Shown here one piece after another: positions 4,380 to 16,869 of a DNA stretch of 64,000 bases. The notes beneath the pieces are model-generated. The model did not search any database. It saw only the letters and a program-made list of their open reading frames with translations, and had not been told where the DNA came from. Source of the stretch: Actinoplanes octamycinicus (GTDB taxonomy: Bacteria; Actinomycetota; Actinomycetes; Mycobacteriales; Micromonosporaceae); assembly GCF_014205225.1 (NCBI RefSeq), contig NZ_JACHNB010000001.1, positions 9,157,501-9,221,500 of the forward strand, read 5' to 3'. The position numbers and the translations under genes were made by a program. Within the stretch, counting starts at the first letter, position 1; each line of letters opens with the position of its first letter.

Positions 4380-6353
4380 TCAAGCGGTCGTGACGCGCGC
4401 GTCCTCCTCGGCCATCGCCTCCTGGCGGCCCGGCTCCTCGCGGAGGATCGCGGCGTTGAGCCACTCGTCCGGGATGGCGAAGGCGTCGACGAGCGTCGCC
4501 ATGTGCGGGCGCAGCTCGCGCAGCAGGTCGTTGATCACCGCGGTGACCGCCTTGGAGCGAGCCGGGGTGAGCCGGCCGTGCTCCAGGAACCAGCCCTTGT
4601 CCGCCTCGATGGTGACCAGCGCGTAGAGGTCGCAGACCCGGTCCAGCAGGGCCCGCGCCGCAGGGTCGGTGGCCCGCTCGATCCCGGCGACGAACGCCTC
4701 CAGGGTGATCCGGTCGATGTGCGCGGTCGCCGTCTTCAGCACGTGGTCCTGCACGTCGTTGAAGATCTCGAACGGCCGGTCCTTCTTGGTGGCGGCCCCG
4801 TTGCGCAGGCGGCGGATGGCGCCCTCCAGGACGTGCTTCTCCCGGTCCTCGAACATCGTCAGGTGCCAGCCGCGGTCGGTCACCGCGACCTCCTCGTCGC
4901 GGCCCGGCACCGCGCTGACCAGACGCTGGATCAGGCCGCGGGCGGCGGTCCGCTCCAGCACCATCTCGCGCACCTGCTCGGCCACGAAGGTGGCCCGGCC
5001 CCAGCCGTCCAGCGAGCCGAAGGCGTCCCGGTACCCGGTCAGCAGACCCTTCGCCACCAGCTGCAACAGCACCGTGTTGTCGCCCTCGAAGGTGGTGAAG
5101 ACGTCGGTGTCGGCCTTGAGCGCGGGCAGCCGGTTCTCCGACAGGTAGCCGGCGCCGCCGCACGCCTCCCGGCACATCTGGATGGTGTGCGTGGCGTGCC
5201 AGGTCTGCATCGCCTTCAGCCCGGCGGCCCGGGACTCCAGCTCCCGCTGCCGGTGCTCGTCGACCGGGCCGGGGCCGGCCTGCACGTCGGCCAGGGTGCC
5301 GACCAGCTCCTCCTGGGCGAACGCGTAGGCATAGCTGGTGGCCAGCGCGGGCAGGAGTTTGCGCTGGTGGGCCAGGTAGTCGTTGAGCGCCACCTCGCGC
5401 TCCTCGCCGGGCACCCCGAACTGGCGGCGACTGTCGCCGTAGCGGACCGCGATGGTCAGCGCCGCCCGGGTCGCCGCCGACGCCGCGCCGCCGACCGTGA
5501 CCCGGCCGCGGACCAGGGTGCCGAGCATGGTGAAGAAGCGGCGGGTGTCGTTCTCGATCGGGCTGCTGTAGGCGCCGTCCGGGGCGACCTGTCCGTACCG
5601 GTCCAGCAGCATGTCGCGCGGCACGGTGACGTGGTCGAAGCTGATCCGGCCGTTGTCCACGCCGAGCAGGCCGGCCTTGTGCCCGGCGTCGCTCAGCGTC
5701 ACCCCCGGCATCGGGTTGCCGTCGGCGTCCCGGATCGGCACCAGCCAGGCGTGCACGCCCCGGTTCTGCCCCTGGGTGATCAGCTGGGCGAAGACGACCG
5801 CCATCCGGCCGTCCCGGGCGGCGTTGCCGATGTAGTCCTTGCGGGCCGCCTGGTGCGGCGTGTGCAGGTCGAAGGTCTCGGTCACCGGATCGTAGACGCA
5901 GGTGGTGCGCAATTTCTGCACGTCCGAGCCGTGACCGGTCTCGGTCATCGCGAAACAGCCCATGATCTCGGTGTCGATGATCCCGCGCAGGTACGCCTCG
6001 TGGTGCCGCTCGGTGCCCAGCGCCACCACCGCGCCGCCGAACAGCCCCCACTGCACGCCGGCCTTCACCATCAGCGACAGGTCGGCGTAGGCGAGCATCT
6101 CGGCCGCCACCACCGAGCCGCCCGGGTCGTCCGACCCGCCGTAGGCCTTGGGGAACGCCGAGGCCACCCCGACGTCGGTCGGGATCTGCCGGATCAGCGC
6201 GCTGATCCGGTCCCGCGCCTCGTCCCCGGTCTCCCCGTGCACCGCGGCGAACCCGGCCTTGCCGAGCCCGTCCCGCACCGCTTGCCGGATCCCTGCCCAC
6301 CGCCCGTCCAGAACTTCCTGCAGGCGTGCCACGTCGATGGAGTCGCCGATCAT
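4380..6353 (-). CDS. Acyl-CoA dehydrogenase / oxidase family flavoprotein
   Basis: A 657-aa protein of the long acyl-CoA dehydrogenase/oxidase type (usual short dehydrogenases are ~390 aa). The FAD/substrate signature CFAMTETGHGSDVQKLRTT lies near residue 133, and the C-terminal helix domain holds QMCREACGGAGYLSENRLP, followed by FTTFEGDNTVL, where the Glu aligns with the catalytic base of acyl-CoA oxidases. The reaction is alpha,beta-oxidation of acyl-CoA thioesters in beta-oxidation, using FAD. Whether O2 or an electron-transfer flavoprotein is the acceptor cannot be read from sequence. The length with an extended C-terminal domain resembles actinobacterial acyl-CoA oxidases. It starts with ATG at 6353; no partner beta-oxidation genes are adjacent. 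Confidence 0.9.
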   Translation of the reverse strand: MIGDSIDVARLQEVLDGRWAGIRQAVRDGLGKAGFAAVHGETGDEARDRISALIRQIPTDVGVASAFPKAYGGSDDPGGSVVAAEMLAYADLSLMVKAGVQWGLFGGAVVALGTERHHEAYLRGIIDTEIMGCFAMTETGHGSDVQKLRTTCVYDPVTETFDLHTPHQAARKDYIGNAARDGRMAVVFAQLITQGQNRGVHAWLVPIRDADGNPMPGVTLSDAGHKAGLLGVDNGRISFDHVTVPRDMLLDRYGQVAPDGAYSSPIENDTRRFFTMLGTLVRGRVTVGGAASAATRAALTIAVRYGDSRRQFGVPGEEREVALNDYLAHQRKLLPALATSYAYAFAQEELVGTLADVQAGPGPVDEHRQRELESRAAGLKAMQTWHATHTIQMCREACGGAGYLSENRLPALKADTDVFTTFEGDNTVLLQLVAKGLLTGYRDAFGSLDGWGRATFVAEQVREMVLERTAARGLIQRLVSAVPGRDEEVAVTDRGWHLTMFEDREKHVLEGAIRRLRNGAATKKDRPFEIFNDVQDHVLKTATAHIDRITLEAFVAGIERATDPAARALLDRVCDLYALVTIEADKGWFLEHGRLTPARSKAVTAVINDLLRELRPHMATLVDAFAIPDEWLNAAILREEPGRQEAMAEEDARVTTA

Positions 6354-11707: not shown

Positions 11708-12694
11708 TCAGTTGGTGGCCAGCGCCAGCGCGTACTCCGGCCACCACTGGCCGGCCGGCGGGGCACCGGAGCCGCACTCCCCGTCGGACTCGCCCGGGCG
11801 TTTCACCCACAGGTAGGCGTCGACCCGGTCGTGCCCGGTCTGGGTGGTCGGGGCCGGGCCGAGCGCCCGTCCCGGCGGATTGCACCAGTGCCCGTCCCCG
11901 GAGCCGGCGGTGGCGGCCGGCCCGTTCCCGTTCCGGCTGGTGTCGATCACGAAGTGCGCGCCGCCGAGCCGGTCGGAGATCGCCGTCCCGTAACCGATGT
12001 TGGCGTCGGTGGTCTCGAAGTTCGCCACGTTCAGGCTGAACCCGTCGGCCTCGGCCACCCCGGCCCGGCGCAGCGCGTCCACCACCCGGTCCACGTCCTT
12101 GACCCAGCCCGGGTTCCCGCCGTCCAGGTAGACCCGCACCCCGGGATCCGCCTTGAACGCCCGGATCGCCTCGCCGAGCAGCCCGAACCGCTCGCCGGCC
12201 GCCTGTTCGCCGAGGCAGCCCTGCAGCACGTGGGTGACCGCGTCCGGCTCCAGCACGACCAGCGCCGGCGACCCGTGCACCGCGGCGGCCAGCCGCCCGA
12301 TCCAGTCCCGGTAGGCGGCCGCGTCCGGCGCGCCGCCGCCGGAGTGCCCGCCGCAGTCGCGCTGCGGAACCCAGTAGGCGACCAGCACCGGCGTCCGCCC
12401 GGCCGCGGCGGCCGAGGTGACCAACTCCCGGGCGCGGTCGGCGAAGCCGGGATCGGCGTCCGCGAACCACACCGCGGTGGGCTCGTCGGCGATCCGGCGC
12501 ACCGCCGCCGCGTCCGCCGCCCGGCCGGCCGCGTCCCAGCTGCGCACCTGGGCGGCGGCCGCGCCGGCCGGCTCCACGTAGAACTTCTCGACCGGCGGCG
12601 CGGGCACCGGCTCGGGCCGCGACCCGGCCTCGACCGTGCAGGCCGCCAGGCCCGCGCACGCGACAACGGCCAGGACCGCGGAACGAACTCTCAT
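11708..12694 (-). CDS. GH6 family endoglucanase-like lipoprotein
   Basis: A 328-aa lipoprotein: the signal MRVRSAVLAVVACAGLAAC has the lipobox L-A-A-C with Cys19. The rest matches glycoside hydrolase family 6 (endoglucanase / cellobiohydrolase). Seen are V-A-Y-W-V-P-Q-R-D-C (GH6 usually has Y-x-x-P-x-R-D-C), VLEPDAVTH with the proposed catalytic acid Asp, YLDGGNPGWV, and the DTSRNGNGP region near the C-terminus. GH6 enzymes cut beta-1,4-glucan with inversion. In Streptomyces a GH6 protein (CslZ) belongs to the cslA-glxA locus, so trimming or release of the CslA glucan at the cell surface is the likely job. It is convergent with glxA and lies just downstream of the sigma/anti-sigma genes on the same strand. 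Confidence 0.88.
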   Translation of the reverse strand: MRVRSAVLAVVACAGLAACTVEAGSRPEPVPAPPVEKFYVEPAGAAAAQVRSWDAAGRAADAAAVRRIADEPTAVWFADADPGFADRARELVTSAAAAGRTPVLVAYWVPQRDCGGHSGGGAPDAAAYRDWIGRLAAAVHGSPALVVLEPDAVTHVLQGCLGEQAAGERFGLLGEAIRAFKADPGVRVYLDGGNPGWVKDVDRVVDALRRAGVAEADGFSLNVANFETTDANIGYGTAISDRLGGAHFVIDTSRNGNGPAATAGSGDGHWCNPPGRALGPAPTTQTGHDRVDAYLWVKRPGESDGECGSGAPPAGQWWPEYALALATN

Positions 12695-12708: not shown

Positions 12709-13452
12709 TCAGCGCACCGACCGGGCCACCTCGCTCGCCTCCTCGAGGGTGGCAAGTCCTTCCAGCCGATAGGTGACGCTCCCGGTGCTCCAGATCAGCG
12801 ACGGACCGGCGAGGCGGGCGGTCTCGTCCCGGCTCACGCCGTCGCGGTCGACGTACGTGATCGGATGCGGCGCGGCCAGCCACACCGCGACCTCCCCGAC
12901 GCCCTCCACCCACTGTCCGTCCGGCGCCGTCTTCAGGAATACCGGGTCCACTCTCCCGTCGAACTGGTCAAAACGCACCGTACCGCCCCGGAAGATCTGG
13001 GTGACCACCCGCGGTGCGCCGTTTTTGTCCGGATCGGCGAGAAGCACCCGGTCGGGCGACCCCAGCTTCTCCGGCACCACGACCGGGAACAGCGCCTTCG
13101 CCCGGGCGTCGGCCAGCTCGGCGGTCGCCTGGGCCGGCAGCGGGCTGGGCGACGCCGGCAGCGCCCGCTCCGGTTGCTCCGCCGACGGATCGCGCAACTC
13201 GATGCCGGCCACCCGGAGCAGCCCGCCGACCGCGTCCAGCACGGCCGCCCGGGCCGGCGAGATCGCCGCCACCGCGAGGACCAGCGCCGCCACCACCGCG
13301 GACAGATAGAAACGGGCGCGATGCCGGCGCGGCGCGGGGCGGGCCAGGCGCGCCCGGACCGCTTGCCGCTGATCACGGGCCTCCGGTACGGCGTACGCCC
13401 GCCCGAGGTCCCGCAGCTCCCCGATCAGTTCCTCGAAGTCCCGCTCAGGCAC
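12709..13452 (-). CDS. Probable anti-sigma factor (single-span)
   Basis: A 247-aa protein whose ATG start overlaps the end of the ECF sigma gene by 8 bases. Residues 1-45 are cytosolic and charged (EELIGELRDLGRAYAVPE), followed by one membrane helix at about 48-70 (YLSAVVAALVLAVAAISP) and an extracytoplasmic domain of ~175 residues. That layout and the overlap with the sigma gene fit a membrane anti-sigma factor. The classical zinc H-x-x-x-C-x-x-C motif is absent, so it is not a ZAS-type anti-sigma. The outer domain, with YVDRDGVSRDETARL near its end, may sense an envelope signal. The GH6 gene follows after 14 bp and is probably in the same transcript. Confidence 0.7.
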   Translation of the reverse strand: MPERDFEELIGELRDLGRAYAVPEARDQRQAVRARLARPAPRRHRARFYLSAVVAALVLAVAAISPARAAVLDAVGGLLRVAGIELRDPSAEQPERALPASPSPLPAQATAELADARAKALFPVVVPEKLGSPDRVLLADPDKNGAPRVVTQIFRGGTVRFDQFDGRVDPVFLKTAPDGQWVEGVGEVAVWLAAPHPITYVDRDGVSRDETARLAGPSLIWSTGSVTYRLEGLATLEEASEVARSVR

Positions 13453-14002
13453 CGGGCACCTCCTCCACCGGCATCCGGTCGCGCAGCTTGCCGAGCGCCC
13501 GCGCGGTCCGCGACTTGACCGTCCCGCGCGGCAGCCCCAGCGTCACCGCGGTCTCCACCTCGGACAGCTCCAGCAGATAGCGGCAGACCAGCACGTCCCG
13601 GTCCCGGGCGTCGAGGGCGCGCAACTGGTCGAGCAGCAGCCGGCGGCGCTCGCCGGCCACCGCCGTCTCGGCCGGGTCGGGCTCCACCGGGTCCGGTCCG
13701 GCCCGCACCCCGACGCGTTGCAACAACCCGTCCCGCCGGCGCCGGGACCGGACCAGGTTGCGGGTCTCGTTCGCCACGATGGCCAGCAGCCACGCCTTGA
13801 ACCCGGCCTCGCCCCGGTACCGTCCCAGCTGCCGGTACGCCTTCACGAACGCCTCCTGCACCACGTCGTCCGCGTCCGCCCCGGCCCCGAGCAGCACGGC
13901 CGCCCGGTGCGCGGGCGCGGTGCAGTGCCCGACCAGGGTCTCGTACGCGTCCAGGTCCCCCGCGCGCGCCCGTGCCACCACGGCCGCCTCATCCACCACC
14001 AC
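13445..14002 (-). CDS. ECF RNA polymerase sigma factor
   Basis: A 185-aa group IV (ECF) sigma-70 factor. Region 2 is recognisable from about residue 20 to 85, with DADDVVQEAFVKAYRQLGRY (core binding) and KAWLLAIVANETRNLVRSRR (-10 recognition). Region 4 is near the C-terminus, with VCRYLLELSEVETAVTLGL and the helix RGTVKSRTARALGKLRDRM that reads the -35 box. The start is GTG at 14002, only 8 bases from a perfect 40-bp palindrome that contains an ECF-like GGAAC...GTC promoter pattern; the mRNA may be leaderless and the gene self-activated. The next gene downstream is its likely membrane anti-sigma. The target may include the divergent lipoprotein and the GH6 gene. Confidence 0.9.
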   Translation of the reverse strand: MVVDEAAVVARARAGDLDAYETLVGHCTAPAHRAAVLLGAGADADDVVQEAFVKAYRQLGRYRGEAGFKAWLLAIVANETRNLVRSRRRRDGLLQRVGVRAGPDPVEPDPAETAVAGERRRLLLDQLRALDARDRDVLVCRYLLELSEVETAVTLGLPRGTVKSRTARALGKLRDRMPVEEVPGA

Positions 14003-14010
14003 GTCACTAG

Positions 14011-14050
14011 GACACCACCGATCGGGAACCGGTTCCCGATCGGTGGTGTC
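14011..14050. promoter_or_regulatory. Perfect 40-bp palindrome, probable dual ECF promoter
   Basis: Bases 14011-14030 and 14031-14050 are exact reverse complements. Each strand contains GGGAACC followed, ~17 bases later, by GTGTC, which resembles the GGAAC / GTC promoter elements of actinobacterial ECF sigma factors. On the + strand GTC ends at 14050 and the lipoprotein ATG is at 14059. On the - strand GTC ends at 14011 and the sigma GTG is at 14002. Both genes would start 8 bases beyond the -10 box, so transcripts would be leaderless or nearly so. The two promoters overlap fully, so polymerase could serve only one direction at a time. A repressor operator is an alternative reading. Confidence 0.75.
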
Positions 14051-14058
14051 ACCGGTAC

Positions 14059-15258
14059 ATGACGACTCGCCGCTCCTTCCTTCTGCTCGCCGGGACCTCG
14101 ATCGCGCTCGGCGCGGCCGGCTGCCGGGACACCGCCACGCCGCCGGCCGCCGCCACCGCGCCGGACGTGCTGATCGCCGAGACCGGGCAGGGGCTGGTAC
14201 GGCTGACCCCGCAGGGCGTGCAGGCGTACGGGCCCGCGTCGGTGCTCAGCAATGGTGGGACGCGGCTGGCCGTCGTACGGGAGAAGGTGTTGTCGCAGAT
14301 CGTGACCGGGACCGGGGAGACCACCCGGACCGCCGCCCTCCCGGACGGCTGGCTGCCGCGGGCGGTCTCGCCGGACGGGCGGGCCTGCGCGCTGAGCCGG
14401 ACCCCGGCGAGCGTCGTGCCGCGCGGACGCGAGCGGACCCCGCTGCTGGTCGTGGTCGACGGGCGGCAGCGGGAGTTCGACCTGCCCGGGGTGATCGAGC
14501 CGGACGCCTTCAGCAGCGACGCGAGCGCCCTGTTCGTGCTGGACTGGCAGCCGGCCGGGAACCCGGACCACTACCGGGTGCGGGTGCTGGACCTGGCCAC
14601 CGGGCGGATGGAGCCGCTCAACACCCGGGCCAAGACGGCGGTGCCGGCCGGCGCCGAGGAGCAGATGCGCGGCGAGGGACGCCAGGCGGTGCCGGCCGGC
14701 AACCTGCTGCTCACCCTCTACACGCACCAGCCCGGCCACCAGCACACCCGGGACCTGCTGTCCGGGCGGCCGGGCAACGCGCACGCGTTCGTGCACGTGC
14801 TGCACCTGACCGACCGCTGGGCCTACTGCCTGGACCTGCCGCACCCGTTCGGCGAGGGGCCGCCGGCCGCCCACGCGCTCGCCGCGGACGCCGAGGGTCT
14901 CGTCGTGCTGGACAGCACGAGCGGGCAGCTGGCCTACGCGGACCTGGAGACGCTGACCATCCAGCGGACCGGTCCGGCGCGGGTACCGGCGGGGACCGCG
15001 GCGGCCCTCGCGCTGACCGCCGACCGGCGCGTCCTGGCCGGGGCGAAGGACCAGGTCAGCGTGCTGGACCGGGGGTCCGGGACGGTCACCGGCGGCTGGC
15101 ACGTGCCGGATCCGCTGCTCGGGATCGGGCTGAGCCGGGACGGGTCCCGGGTGTACGCCGGGACCACCGGTGCGGTGCACTGGCTGGACGCGAGAACCGG
15201 GGAGGCGCTCGGCCGGGTGCCGGTCGACGGGCTGACCGGACTGCGGCACGTCGGCTGA
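14059..15258 (+). CDS. Tat-type lipoprotein with beta-propeller repeats
   Basis: A 399-aa lipoprotein. The signal MTTRRSFLLLAGTSIALGAAGC has a twin-arginine start (TRRSFLLL) and the lipobox G-A-A-G-C with Cys22. The mature part is built of blade-like repeats with patterns such as DLETLTIQR, LADRR/ADRRVLAGAKDQVSVLD and GLSRDGSRVYAGTTGAVHWLD, suggesting a six- or seven-bladed propeller like YncE/WD40-type surface proteins. No catalytic motif is seen. It is divergent from the ECF sigma gene, with the 40-bp palindrome filling the gap, so it is probably controlled by that sigma factor and could be part of the envelope response. Confidence 0.8.
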   Translation: MTTRRSFLLLAGTSIALGAAGCRDTATPPAAATAPDVLIAETGQGLVRLTPQGVQAYGPASVLSNGGTRLAVVREKVLSQIVTGTGETTRTAALPDGWLPRAVSPDGRACALSRTPASVVPRGRERTPLLVVVDGRQREFDLPGVIEPDAFSSDASALFVLDWQPAGNPDHYRVRVLDLATGRMEPLNTRAKTAVPAGAEEQMRGEGRQAVPAGNLLLTLYTHQPGHQHTRDLLSGRPGNAHAFVHVLHLTDRWAYCLDLPHPFGEGPPAAHALAADAEGLVVLDSTSGQLAYADLETLTIQRTGPARVPAGTAAALALTADRRVLAGAKDQVSVLDRGSGTVTGGWHVPDPLLGIGLSRDGSRVYAGTTGAVHWLDARTGEALGRVPVDGLTGLRHVG

Positions 15259-15297: not shown

Positions 15298-16869
15298 GTG
15301 CTGCTCCGTTGCTACGCCGTCATCTCCACCGTGCTGGTGGCGACGTACCTGGTGTGGCCTTACGAACTGCGGTCCTGGCCGTTCCTGGCGGTCACGCTCA
15401 CCGCGGTGCTGACCGTGGTCATCGCACTGCGCCGGGCGCCGCGCGGCAGCCGGGCGCCGTGGTGGCTGATGCTCGTCGCGATGGTGCTCTACAACGTCGG
15501 CAACATCATCTGGATCTGGCTGACCGTGGTCGCCGGGCGCCCCACCGGTGACGGCAGCGTCGCCGACGTCCTGTTCACCGCGGCCGGGGCATTTTTGCTG
15601 GCCGGGGCGCTCGTGCTGATCCGGCGGCGGGCTCGCGGTGACATCGGCGGGGTGATCGACTCGGTGATCACCGCGGTGGCCCTCGGCGGCGTGCTGTGGG
15701 ACGCGGTGATCCTGCCGGCCAACGCCGCGCACCACCTGCCGCCCGTGCAGCAGATCGCCGCCTTCGTGGATCTCCTCGCGGTCAGCGGCACGCTGGGCGC
15801 GATGCTCCGGGTCTCCCGGGGATCGGCGGCGCACCGGAACGCACCATGGCGCCTCCGGCTCCTGGTGAGTGGCCGGTCGGCGTCGGTCCGGCTGCTCGCC
15901 GCGGGCATCGCGCTCACCCTGGCCGCCAAGGTGATCTCACCGCTGGTGACCGGCGCCGACGGGATCCGGCCGGACTGGACGAACGTCTTCTACCTGGCCG
16001 CCTACGCCGCGCTCGGCTGCGCGGCGCTGCATCCGTCCGTGGGGATCGTGCTGACCAGCACGCGAGCGCCGGACGACGACCTGTCCCGGGGCCGGCTCAC
16101 CTTCCTCGGGGCGATGCTGGCGATCACCCCGCTGATCGGCGGCGGGCGCGCGATGATCGGCCTGCCGGTCGACGGGGTACTGATCGCGTTGTCGTCAGCG
16201 GCGCTGGTTCCGCTGGTCATGGTCCGGATCGCCCGGCTCGCCGCGCAGCGGCGCGCCGCCGAGCAGGCCCTGCACCACCTGGCCACCCGGGACGCCCTGA
16301 CCGGCCTCCCGAACCGGGCCGCCTGCCTGACCGCCCTGGCCACCGCCCTGCCCACCCCCGCGCCGCTCCCCGTTTCCCCGGCCTCGCCCTCGCCCTCGCC
16401 CTCGCCCTCGCCCTCGCCCGCCGGAGTCTCCTCTGCCGCTCTCGCGGTCGTCTCCTCGACGGCCGGCGGCGATCAGCTCGCGGTGCTGTTCTGCGATCTG
16501 GACGGGTTCAAGCCGGTCAACGACCGCCTCGGGCACGCGGCCGGCGACGAGCTGCTGGTCGCCGTGGCGGCCCGGCTGCGCGGCTGCGTCCGCGAGGGCG
16601 ATCTGGTGAGCCGCTTCGGCGGGGACGAGTTCGTACTGGTCTGTCACGGTCCGGGCGCGGTCGCCGCGGTCAGCGACCGGATCGCCGCGATGACCACCGA
16701 GCCGTTCACCGCCGGCGGTGAACAGGTCCGGATCGGGATCAGCGTCGGCGCCGCCGAGGCCCGCACGCCGGACACCGTCGACGACCTGGTCCGCCGGGCC
16801 GACCTGGCCATGTACGAGGCCAAGAAGTCCAAGCAGGTCGGCAAACTCTCCCTGGTCCTGGCCGCCTGA
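15298..16869 (+). CDS. Membrane diguanylate cyclase (GGDEF)
   Basis: A 523-aa protein with about eight to nine membrane helices in the first ~320 residues and a GGDEF domain at the C-terminus. The active site SRFGGDEFVLV places GGDEF at residues 441-445. R-E-G-D at 432-435 stands five residues before it, the exact spacing of the product-inhibition I-site. LFCDLDGFKPVNDRLGHAAGDELL supplies the Mg2+ and GTP residues. It should make cyclic di-GMP from two GTP. The GGDEF domain is interrupted between TGLPNRAACL and LAVLFCDLDGF by a ~40-residue loop holding (Ser-Pro)x6. The only possible start in frame is GTG 15298, 39 bases after the previous stop. No EAL domain is present. Confidence 0.9.
   Translation: MLLRCYAVISTVLVATYLVWPYELRSWPFLAVTLTAVLTVVIALRRAPRGSRAPWWLMLVAMVLYNVGNIIWIWLTVVAGRPTGDGSVADVLFTAAGAFLLAGALVLIRRRARGDIGGVIDSVITAVALGGVLWDAVILPANAAHHLPPVQQIAAFVDLLAVSGTLGAMLRVSRGSAAHRNAPWRLRLLVSGRSASVRLLAAGIALTLAAKVISPLVTGADGIRPDWTNVFYLAAYAALGCAALHPSVGIVLTSTRAPDDDLSRGRLTFLGAMLAITPLIGGGRAMIGLPVDGVLIALSSAALVPLVMVRIARLAAQRRAAEQALHHLATRDALTGLPNRAACLTALATALPTPAPLPVSPASPSPSPSPSPSPAGVSSAALAVVSSTAGGDQLAVLFCDLDGFKPVNDRLGHAAGDELLVAVAARLRGCVREGDLVSRFGGDEFVLVCHGPGAVAAVSDRIAAMTTEPFTAGGEQVRIGISVGAAEARTPDTVDDLVRRADLAMYEAKKSKQVGKLSLVLAA
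16382..16417 (+). repeat. (CCTCGC)6 microsatellite inside the GGDEF gene
   Basis: Six perfect hexanucleotide copies encode alternating Ser-Pro in a loop of the GGDEF domain. Slippage by one unit keeps frame and adds or removes one Ser-Pro pair, so loop length is likely to vary without destroying the protein. Confidence 0.9.

Follow-up and report, generated by a model that had tools for sequence, protein, structure and literature searches.

A perfect 40-bp palindrome between divergent genes of Actinoplanes octamycinicus is probably a crossed promoter pair of one ECF sigma factor

The locus described here lies in a 64,000-nucleotide stretch of the Actinoplanes octamycinicus genome (assembly GCF_014205225.1, contig NZ_JACHNB010000001.1, positions 9,157,501 to 9,221,500), which is referred to below as the window and is numbered from its first letter. 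Within it, a gene for an extracytoplasmic function (ECF) sigma factor (13445-14002, minus strand) and a gene for a lipoprotein (14059-15258, plus strand) diverge from an exact 40-bp palindrome at 14011-14050. The sigma factor, of 185 amino acids, matches Sigma70_r2 and Sigma70_r4 above the Pfam cut-offs and consists of sigma2 and sigma4 only, joined by a short linker, as is the definition of an ECF factor. Its closest solved structures are ECF factors, and its score with the NCBIfam model TIGR02983 is 103.1, under the cut-off of 141.55. A second minus-strand gene (12709-13452) overlaps the sigma gene at its end, and its product is modeled by AlphaFold (mean predicted local distance difference test score, pLDDT, of 77.6) with two N-terminal helices, a long helix at residues 44-63 that we take to be a membrane helix, and what would be an outer domain. 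This protein has no Pfam match at E ≤ 1 and no fold match in the Protein Data Bank at E ≤ 0.001. Nevertheless, it is likely an anti-sigma factor, because each of the 82 loci searched, 42 in the genus and 40 sampled in the family, has a homolog directly after the sigma gene. A glycosyl hydrolase family 6 gene (11708-12694) comes after it on the same strand. The lipoprotein appears to be of the twin-arginine translocation type, based on an RR motif and a lipobox recognized by eye. Its structural model is all beta (mean pLDDT 87.1, predicted TM-score 0.84), and in Foldseek searches the propellers NirF, AztD and a YVTN protein rank high (E of 1e-9 or lower, TM-score 0.40-0.53 by query), consistent with a beta-propeller fold.

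The palindrome had been pointed out in an earlier reading of the window from its letters alone, hereafter the original prediction. Repeat search recovered it as two arms of 20 nt (14011-14030 and 14031-14050) that are 100% complementary, with no mismatch and a loop of 0. A scan of the window found it to be the longest perfect palindrome without a loop, the runner-up having 22 bp. Assuming independent bases of the window's composition, the number expected by chance is ∼2e-6 per window or 3e-4 per 10.28-Mb genome, the genome figure being an expectation calculated from the composition of the window; a chance origin is therefore ruled out. The next perfect palindromes by length in the window are located at 6189-6210 (22 bp) and at 16704-16723 (20 bp), the latter within a GGDEF gene.

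Both strands of the palindrome read GGGAACC-N14-GGTGTC. In the rightward direction, toward the lipoprotein gene, the presumed −35 element GGGAACC is at 14024-14030 and the −10 element GGTGTC at 14045-14050, whereas in the leftward direction, toward the sigma operon, the same elements occupy 14031-14037 and 14011-14016 of the minus strand. The rightward −35 stands to the left of the leftward one, so that the promoters are crossed, and each −35 element lies in the first half of the opposite spacer. Only seven free bases per arm (14017-14023 on the left, 14038-14044 on the right) fall outside the −35 and −10 elements, yet these are symmetric with one another as well. From the final GTC, 8 nt separate each −10 element from its start codon, the GTG of the sigma gene at 14002 and the ATG of the lipoprotein gene at 14059, just as originally described. 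The original prediction was also correct in seeing GGGAACC and GTGTC on both strands, but the N16/17 spacing that it quoted does not hold, as GGAAC and GTC are separated by N18. Throughout the genome of A. octamycinicus, GGGAACC-N13-15-GGTGTC occurs three times, with two of these occurrences in the palindrome.

We put at about 85% the probability that this palindrome is the promoter pair of one ECF sigma factor, driving the sigma/anti-sigma operon leftward by autoregulation and the beta-propeller lipoprotein gene rightward, with the two promoters crossed, near-leaderless and induced together. The original prediction had likewise proposed two ECF promoters, two near-leaderless genes and the adjacent sigma factor as their reader, and comparison with relatives supports this, as the motif precedes both genes at a constant internal spacing. 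Sigma orthologs are found in 42 of 67 Actinoplanes genomes at 64-100% identity, with the next matches at 46% or less. When a −35/−10 spacing of 12-16 was allowed, every one of the 42 orthologs was found to have the promoter with a spacing of 14 and the −10 element GGTGTC, preceded by GGGAACC in 37 and CGGAACC in 5. The lipoprotein is encoded in 40 of the 67 genomes, all of them among the 42 with the sigma gene (a weak partial match in genome G063, 34% over 77 amino acids, was excluded; G and L numbers are our labels for genomes and loci). In all 40 the motif lies upstream, with at least 5 of 7 positions of the −35 element matching, and this includes cases in which the gene has moved. The distance from −10 element to ATG is 8 nt in 37 of the 40, 9 nt in two (L021, L022) and 30 nt in one (L043). 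At L043 (genome G007) a GGAGG site stands between promoter and ATG, an apparent switch from leaderless to leadered. In genome G002 (C15:96199-97399) the lipoprotein homolog was matched as two overlapping pieces, as if in two frames, which would point to a frameshift or a sequencing error. The two genomes with a sigma gene and no lipoprotein homolog are G061 and G044. In the former, 1000 nt were scanned and no reverse promoter was found, and a lipoprotein of a different family (family 2, below) with the motif is found ∼1.1 kb away, while in the latter the reverse promoter faces a different protein that looks secreted by eye.

Outside the genus, a sigma homolog was found in 116 searched genomes, and 48 of the 116 loci were read, mostly from the top of the list and therefore not a random sample (L101 and L174 name a single locus, counted once). 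The sigma promoter is present in all 40 loci read first, mostly as TGGAACC-N14-GGTGTC, and in its exact form in five of eight more distant ones, for a total of 45 of 48. A conserved ECF-type promoter ahead of the sigma gene, by which an autoregulated operon is recognized, is thus a feature of all 42 genus loci and 45 of the 48 family loci. Among the 40 loci, the reverse promoter coincides with an adjacent lipoprotein gene, occurring at all 18 loci that have one and at none of the 22 others. At sampled loci of genus g23 (L089, L095, L107 and others of L088-L124), in many species, the sigma frame appears by eye to open with CTG soon after a GGAGG-type ribosome site.

The association of the motif with the sigma gene extends beyond this locus. 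The start-linked pattern GGAACC-N14-GGTGTC-N8-RTG has 72 matches in 38 of the 42 sigma-bearing genomes and none in the 25 without the sigma gene, and a reversed control pattern has no match in any of the 67. Twenty-five of these matches lie away from the locus, and all but four of them were read. Seventeen of the 21 start a lipoprotein at the predicted codon, with the lipobox assigned by eye, and these are composed of 14 members of family 2 and three of another family. One further match (L144, in genome G061, which lacks the usual lipoprotein) precedes a membrane protein with weak, below-cut-off propeller matches, and three, including the single one in A. octamycinicus, precede no sensible open reading frame (ORF). 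The family 2 lipoproteins (L130-L135, L137-L139, L141-L143, L146 and L148; about 140-185 amino acids; CGSPVRTDALPEWAR) are encoded in other Actinoplanes genomes with the sigma motif 8 nt before the start. One member, L133, was scanned and matched no Pfam family above cut-off. L136, L140 and L145 represent a third kind of lipoprotein, of 166-195 amino acids, behind the same promoter motif. A search of the genus with an alignment (A1) of 12 of the 14 family 2 proteins returned 24 members, 18 of which have the promoter at 8-9 nt from the start (one of the 18 with a spacing of 15). A further member, L168, sits just downstream of the first lipoprotein gene in genome G056. Five of the 24, including that of A. 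octamycinicus and one in genome G037, which lacks the sigma gene, are more distant and do not have this promoter. Judged by these sequence patterns, the regulon of the sigma factor is probably a small group of lipoprotein genes. A. octamycinicus itself, by the exact motif, has only the one at the palindrome; a wide regulon in this genome was looked for with the exact motif and not found.

Although both promoters are retained, their relative position is not. The distance between −35 starts was obtained for 37 genus loci by a search at fixed −35/−10 spacing, and is −7 at 12 loci, +6 to +8 at 18, +12 to +14 at four, and 28, 46 and 51 at one each. Counted among these 37 is L047, which has a different protein opposite its reverse promoter; L018, L020, L029, L030 and L042 are not included. 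While the inter-promoter distance varies in this way, the internal spacing is 14 or 15 throughout, as determined by the separate search in which 12-16 was allowed. In genome G028, the lipoprotein gene is on another contig, where a copy of the motif stands 8 nt ahead of its ATG, and the copy at the sigma gene persists. In G003, G056 and G066 more DNA separates the two genes, and each still has the motif. In most relatives there is no palindrome, yet both promoters are present, either back to back or far apart; comparison of the loci thus indicates that the two are separable modules and that exact symmetry is not needed for either. The part of the original prediction in which the symmetry itself was the functional element is therefore not sustained, whereas its link between the promoter pair and the sigma factor gains from a motif that moves with the lipoprotein gene and that, in start-linked form, is missing from every genus genome without the sigma gene.

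Several observations weigh against one sigma factor reading both promoters, or against the near-leaderless arrangement as a general feature. Four sigma-bearing genomes (G004, G009, G021 and G044) have no match to the strict start-linked pattern, and the exact forward motif is missing at three distant family loci (L177, L181, L182). The lipoprotein −35 element is the full GGGAACC in only 26 of 40 homologs, being CGGAACC in 12, GGGAACT in one and CGGAACG in one, and the lipoprotein promoter has a spacing of 15 rather than 14 in four of the 40 (L009, L010, L011 and L026; 14 in the other 36). The GTG 8 nt past the sigma −10 element is found at 16 of 17 loci of the clade to which the window belongs, and by eye the sigma gene of other relatives seems leadered or otherwise started. 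In A. octamycinicus itself, no ORF of at least 60 amino acids starts at the one other motif match, and the distant family 2 lipoprotein gene does not have this promoter. ECF promoter motifs overlap in general, and the genome contains many sigma-like genes (at least 49 other matches among the best 50 of 140 candidates scored), such that a paralogous sigma factor with the same specificity is conceivable. That both sites belong to another ECF sigma factor of the cell is nevertheless improbable, since none of the 25 genomes without the sigma gene has the start-linked motif, even though each of these has 22-50 other matches to the sigma query. Still less probable is that the palindrome serves as the operator of a dimeric repressor or activator instead of as two promoters. 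Its perfect two-fold symmetry and its position between divergent genes are what such an operator would display, but a palindrome is found in a minority of relatives, and the fixed half-site spacing expected of a dimer is contradicted by values of −7 to +51 over the 37 genus loci, where the arrangement of the halves ranges from crossed through back to back (+6 to +8) to a separation of 51 bp as the −35/−10 spacing stays constant. Moreover, lone half-elements precede moved or unrelated lipoprotein genes. We rejected the operator on these grounds. A terminator or transcribed hairpin was also rejected, as predicted starts at or near the start codons would leave the palindrome untranscribed.

In the arrangement that we favor, a pair of promoters for one ECF sigma factor, release of the sigma factor by the presumed membrane anti-sigma protein would induce both genes. 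Sigma holoenzyme could bind the element in either orientation, giving rise to sigma/anti-sigma mRNA in one case and lipoprotein mRNA in the other, and we infer that both mRNAs begin either exactly at the start codon or only a few bases away from it. The 8 nt from −10 element to start codon fit predicted leaderless genes, and leaderless transcripts represent 14.03% of coding sequences in Actinoplanes sp. SE50/110 (PMC7682106). A single RNA polymerase would span most or all of the 40 bp, and therefore only one direction might be loaded at a time, although this mutual exclusion, which the original prediction had envisaged as an alternative to equal transcription of the two genes, follows from geometry only. 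None of the five bidirectional promoters tested in Escherichia coli displayed competition when activity was basal, and the divergent RNA was repressed only when one direction was strongly activated (PMC12825309). Therefore, exclusion at the crossed element may bite only under full induction. Together with the further lipoproteins that other species place behind the same promoter, the lipoprotein would make up a small envelope regulon. The symmetry of the spacers would most likely be upheld by template switching between the arms during replication and not by a need for symmetry.

The 12 crossed Actinoplanes loci form a single clade, with support of 1.000, in a FastTree tree of the three proteins. 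Split or separated loci L015, L016, L018, L019 and L020 group inside this clade; the enclosing clade of L013-L022 has support of 0.98, and the inner order is poorly supported. Judging from their placement, these five loci are probably derived from the crossed state, and at L015 the opposing −35 element is still visible as a ghost in each half. Crossing may instead have been gained repeatedly. When one genome from each of 84,980 species was scanned for the pattern, a sample that may omit near relatives of the window, the crossed palindrome was found in seven records, all Actinoplanes. A second crossed arrangement, of 35 bp and in other registers, is found in all four genus g17 genomes with a sigma homolog (L101/L174, L175, L176 and L179). 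The original prediction named loss of symmetry in close relatives as a refuting observation, and this is in part what is seen. The palindrome is perfect over 40 bp at four of the 12 crossed loci (that of A. octamycinicus, L008, L013 and L022) and imperfect at eight, with both promoters kept.

The free spacers of the four perfect loci all differ (ACCGATC, ACCGGCC, GCTCGGC and GCCCGGC), and the arms appear to match more often than separate evolution would produce. Of the 12 crossed loci, L009, L010 and L011 have one extra base in the left spacer and were set aside; over the other nine, matches are found at 48 of 63 spacer pairs, compared to an average of 38 when shuffled (p = 0.013, with no correction for relatedness). 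At 25 non-crossed loci, among them the probable split descendants L015 (7/7) and L016 (6/7), there are 79 matches of 175 compared to 75 when shuffled. We also simulated arms evolving independently along the tree, with base preferences taken from 86 promoters, all non-crossed except L101. Depending on the rate (mu), the probability of at least four perfect loci among 12 was 2e-5 to 2e-3 from an independent root and 6e-5 to 0.05 from a perfect root; at mu of 2-3, which brackets the observed divergence, the corresponding values were 2e-5 to 1.2e-4 and 6e-5 to 1.4e-3. Runs with four different perfect spacers made up at most 1.3e-4 of the total, and the matching-pair count over the nine loci, a less telling measure, had a probability at mu of 2-3 of 0.002 or less with an independent root and 0.002-0.018 with a perfect one. 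Based on these comparisons, the arms seem to evolve in concert, beyond independent drift.

Two explanations for this concerted change share the same statistics. On one, exact symmetry including the spacers is under selection, given that competing promoters would need matched strength or melting, and changes in the arms are fixed in pairs. Consistent with this account are the four perfect palindromes, each with its own spacer, among the 12 crossed loci, the matching of arms above shuffled pairs, and the rarity of four perfect loci under independent arms. However, promoters placed back to back need matched strength equally, yet the 25 non-crossed spacers match no more than shuffled ones, and eight of the 12 crossed loci are imperfect with both promoters kept; we regard selection as the less probable of the two. 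On the other, to which we lean with some reserve, the symmetry is a mutational by-product in which hairpin-mediated template switching copies one arm onto the other, as in quasi-palindrome correction. Template-switch homogenization of inverted-repeat arms has been described (PMC8604942, PMC8794818, PMC7202029). Template switching is preferred over selection because the non-crossed loci show no excess of symmetry, the excess being confined to the class in which the arms abut. In addition, placed by eye on the tree, two neighboring changes that agree with the partner arm can be seen in the right arm of L008 and, with less certainty, in the left arm of A. octamycinicus, the two cases running in opposite directions; the right arm of L009 shares by eye the T of its left arm. 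Counting against template switching, the polarity of the left-arm change is ambiguous and the genomes are few, GATC and GGCC are themselves palindromic such that local symmetry may be preferred for another reason, and the matching-pair count taken by itself is unremarkable for a perfect ancestor at a slow rate (P = 0.28, mu of 1). More tentatively, and we would not assume it to be so, crossing may have made the promoters one co-evolving unit, in which replication copies changes across the arms and the promoters are matched by mutation and not by selection; such crossed pairs may have arisen twice in the family, at 40 bp in Actinoplanes and at 35 bp in g17.

Several of the individual features of this element are already known. 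ECF operons under autoregulation have been described, as have divergent targets of a single ECF sigma factor (PMC8103513) and bidirectional promoters with −10 symmetry (PMC12825309). As in an autoregulated sigma/anti-sigma operon, an ECF sigma gene is followed by a gene for a presumed membrane protein behind its own promoter with an AAC-type −35 element, and positive autoregulation is common among ECF factors, with around 55% established as autoregulated by a prediction tool (PMC8103513). Unlike the general ECF operon, the promoter here is interleaved with that of a divergent target, and its −10 element is GGTGTC and not the CGT of the original ECFs (PMC8103513). The EcfG/NepR-PhyR locus of Alphaproteobacteria also pairs a sigma operon with a divergent gene under promoters of the same ECF-dependent response, but its partner proteins differ, and a crossed palindromic pair is not described in the portion of PMC8103513 available. 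The −10-symmetry promoters of Warman, Grainger and others are alike in that symmetry allows two mutually excluding orientations of RNA polymerase (PMC12825309). In E. coli their divergent starts flank or lie in a shared −10 element, mostly 18 bp apart (PMC12825309), whereas here the crossing is at the −35 element, the predicted starts are ∼53-57 bp apart and the sigma factor is an ECF factor. In place of a shared −10 element with starts ∼10, 18 or 23 bp apart, 28 bp lie between two separate −10 elements. In quasi-palindrome correction, inverted-repeat arms likewise grow more similar by arm-templated changes (PMC8604942, PMC8794818), but the arms here are two presumed working promoters, and its action is suggested by comparison only. 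Among the titles and abstract beginnings of the literature matches listed, there is no description of a crossed palindromic ECF promoter pair, which, as these are open access only, is weak evidence of absence.

For an ECF system in Actinoplanes and its relatives, of which the open-access matches listed contain no earlier description, the comparison outlines a probable regulon of lipoproteins. It also provides a natural series of promoters that are crossed, back to back, split or moved to another contig, in which the internal spacing is kept while the mutual distance changes, and this series makes both the interference between divergent ECF promoters and the arm-templated mutation of working regulatory DNA directly testable. 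If crossing has indeed turned the pair into a co-evolving unit, the promoters of a regulator and its target would stay matched by a mutational mechanism and not by selection on each.

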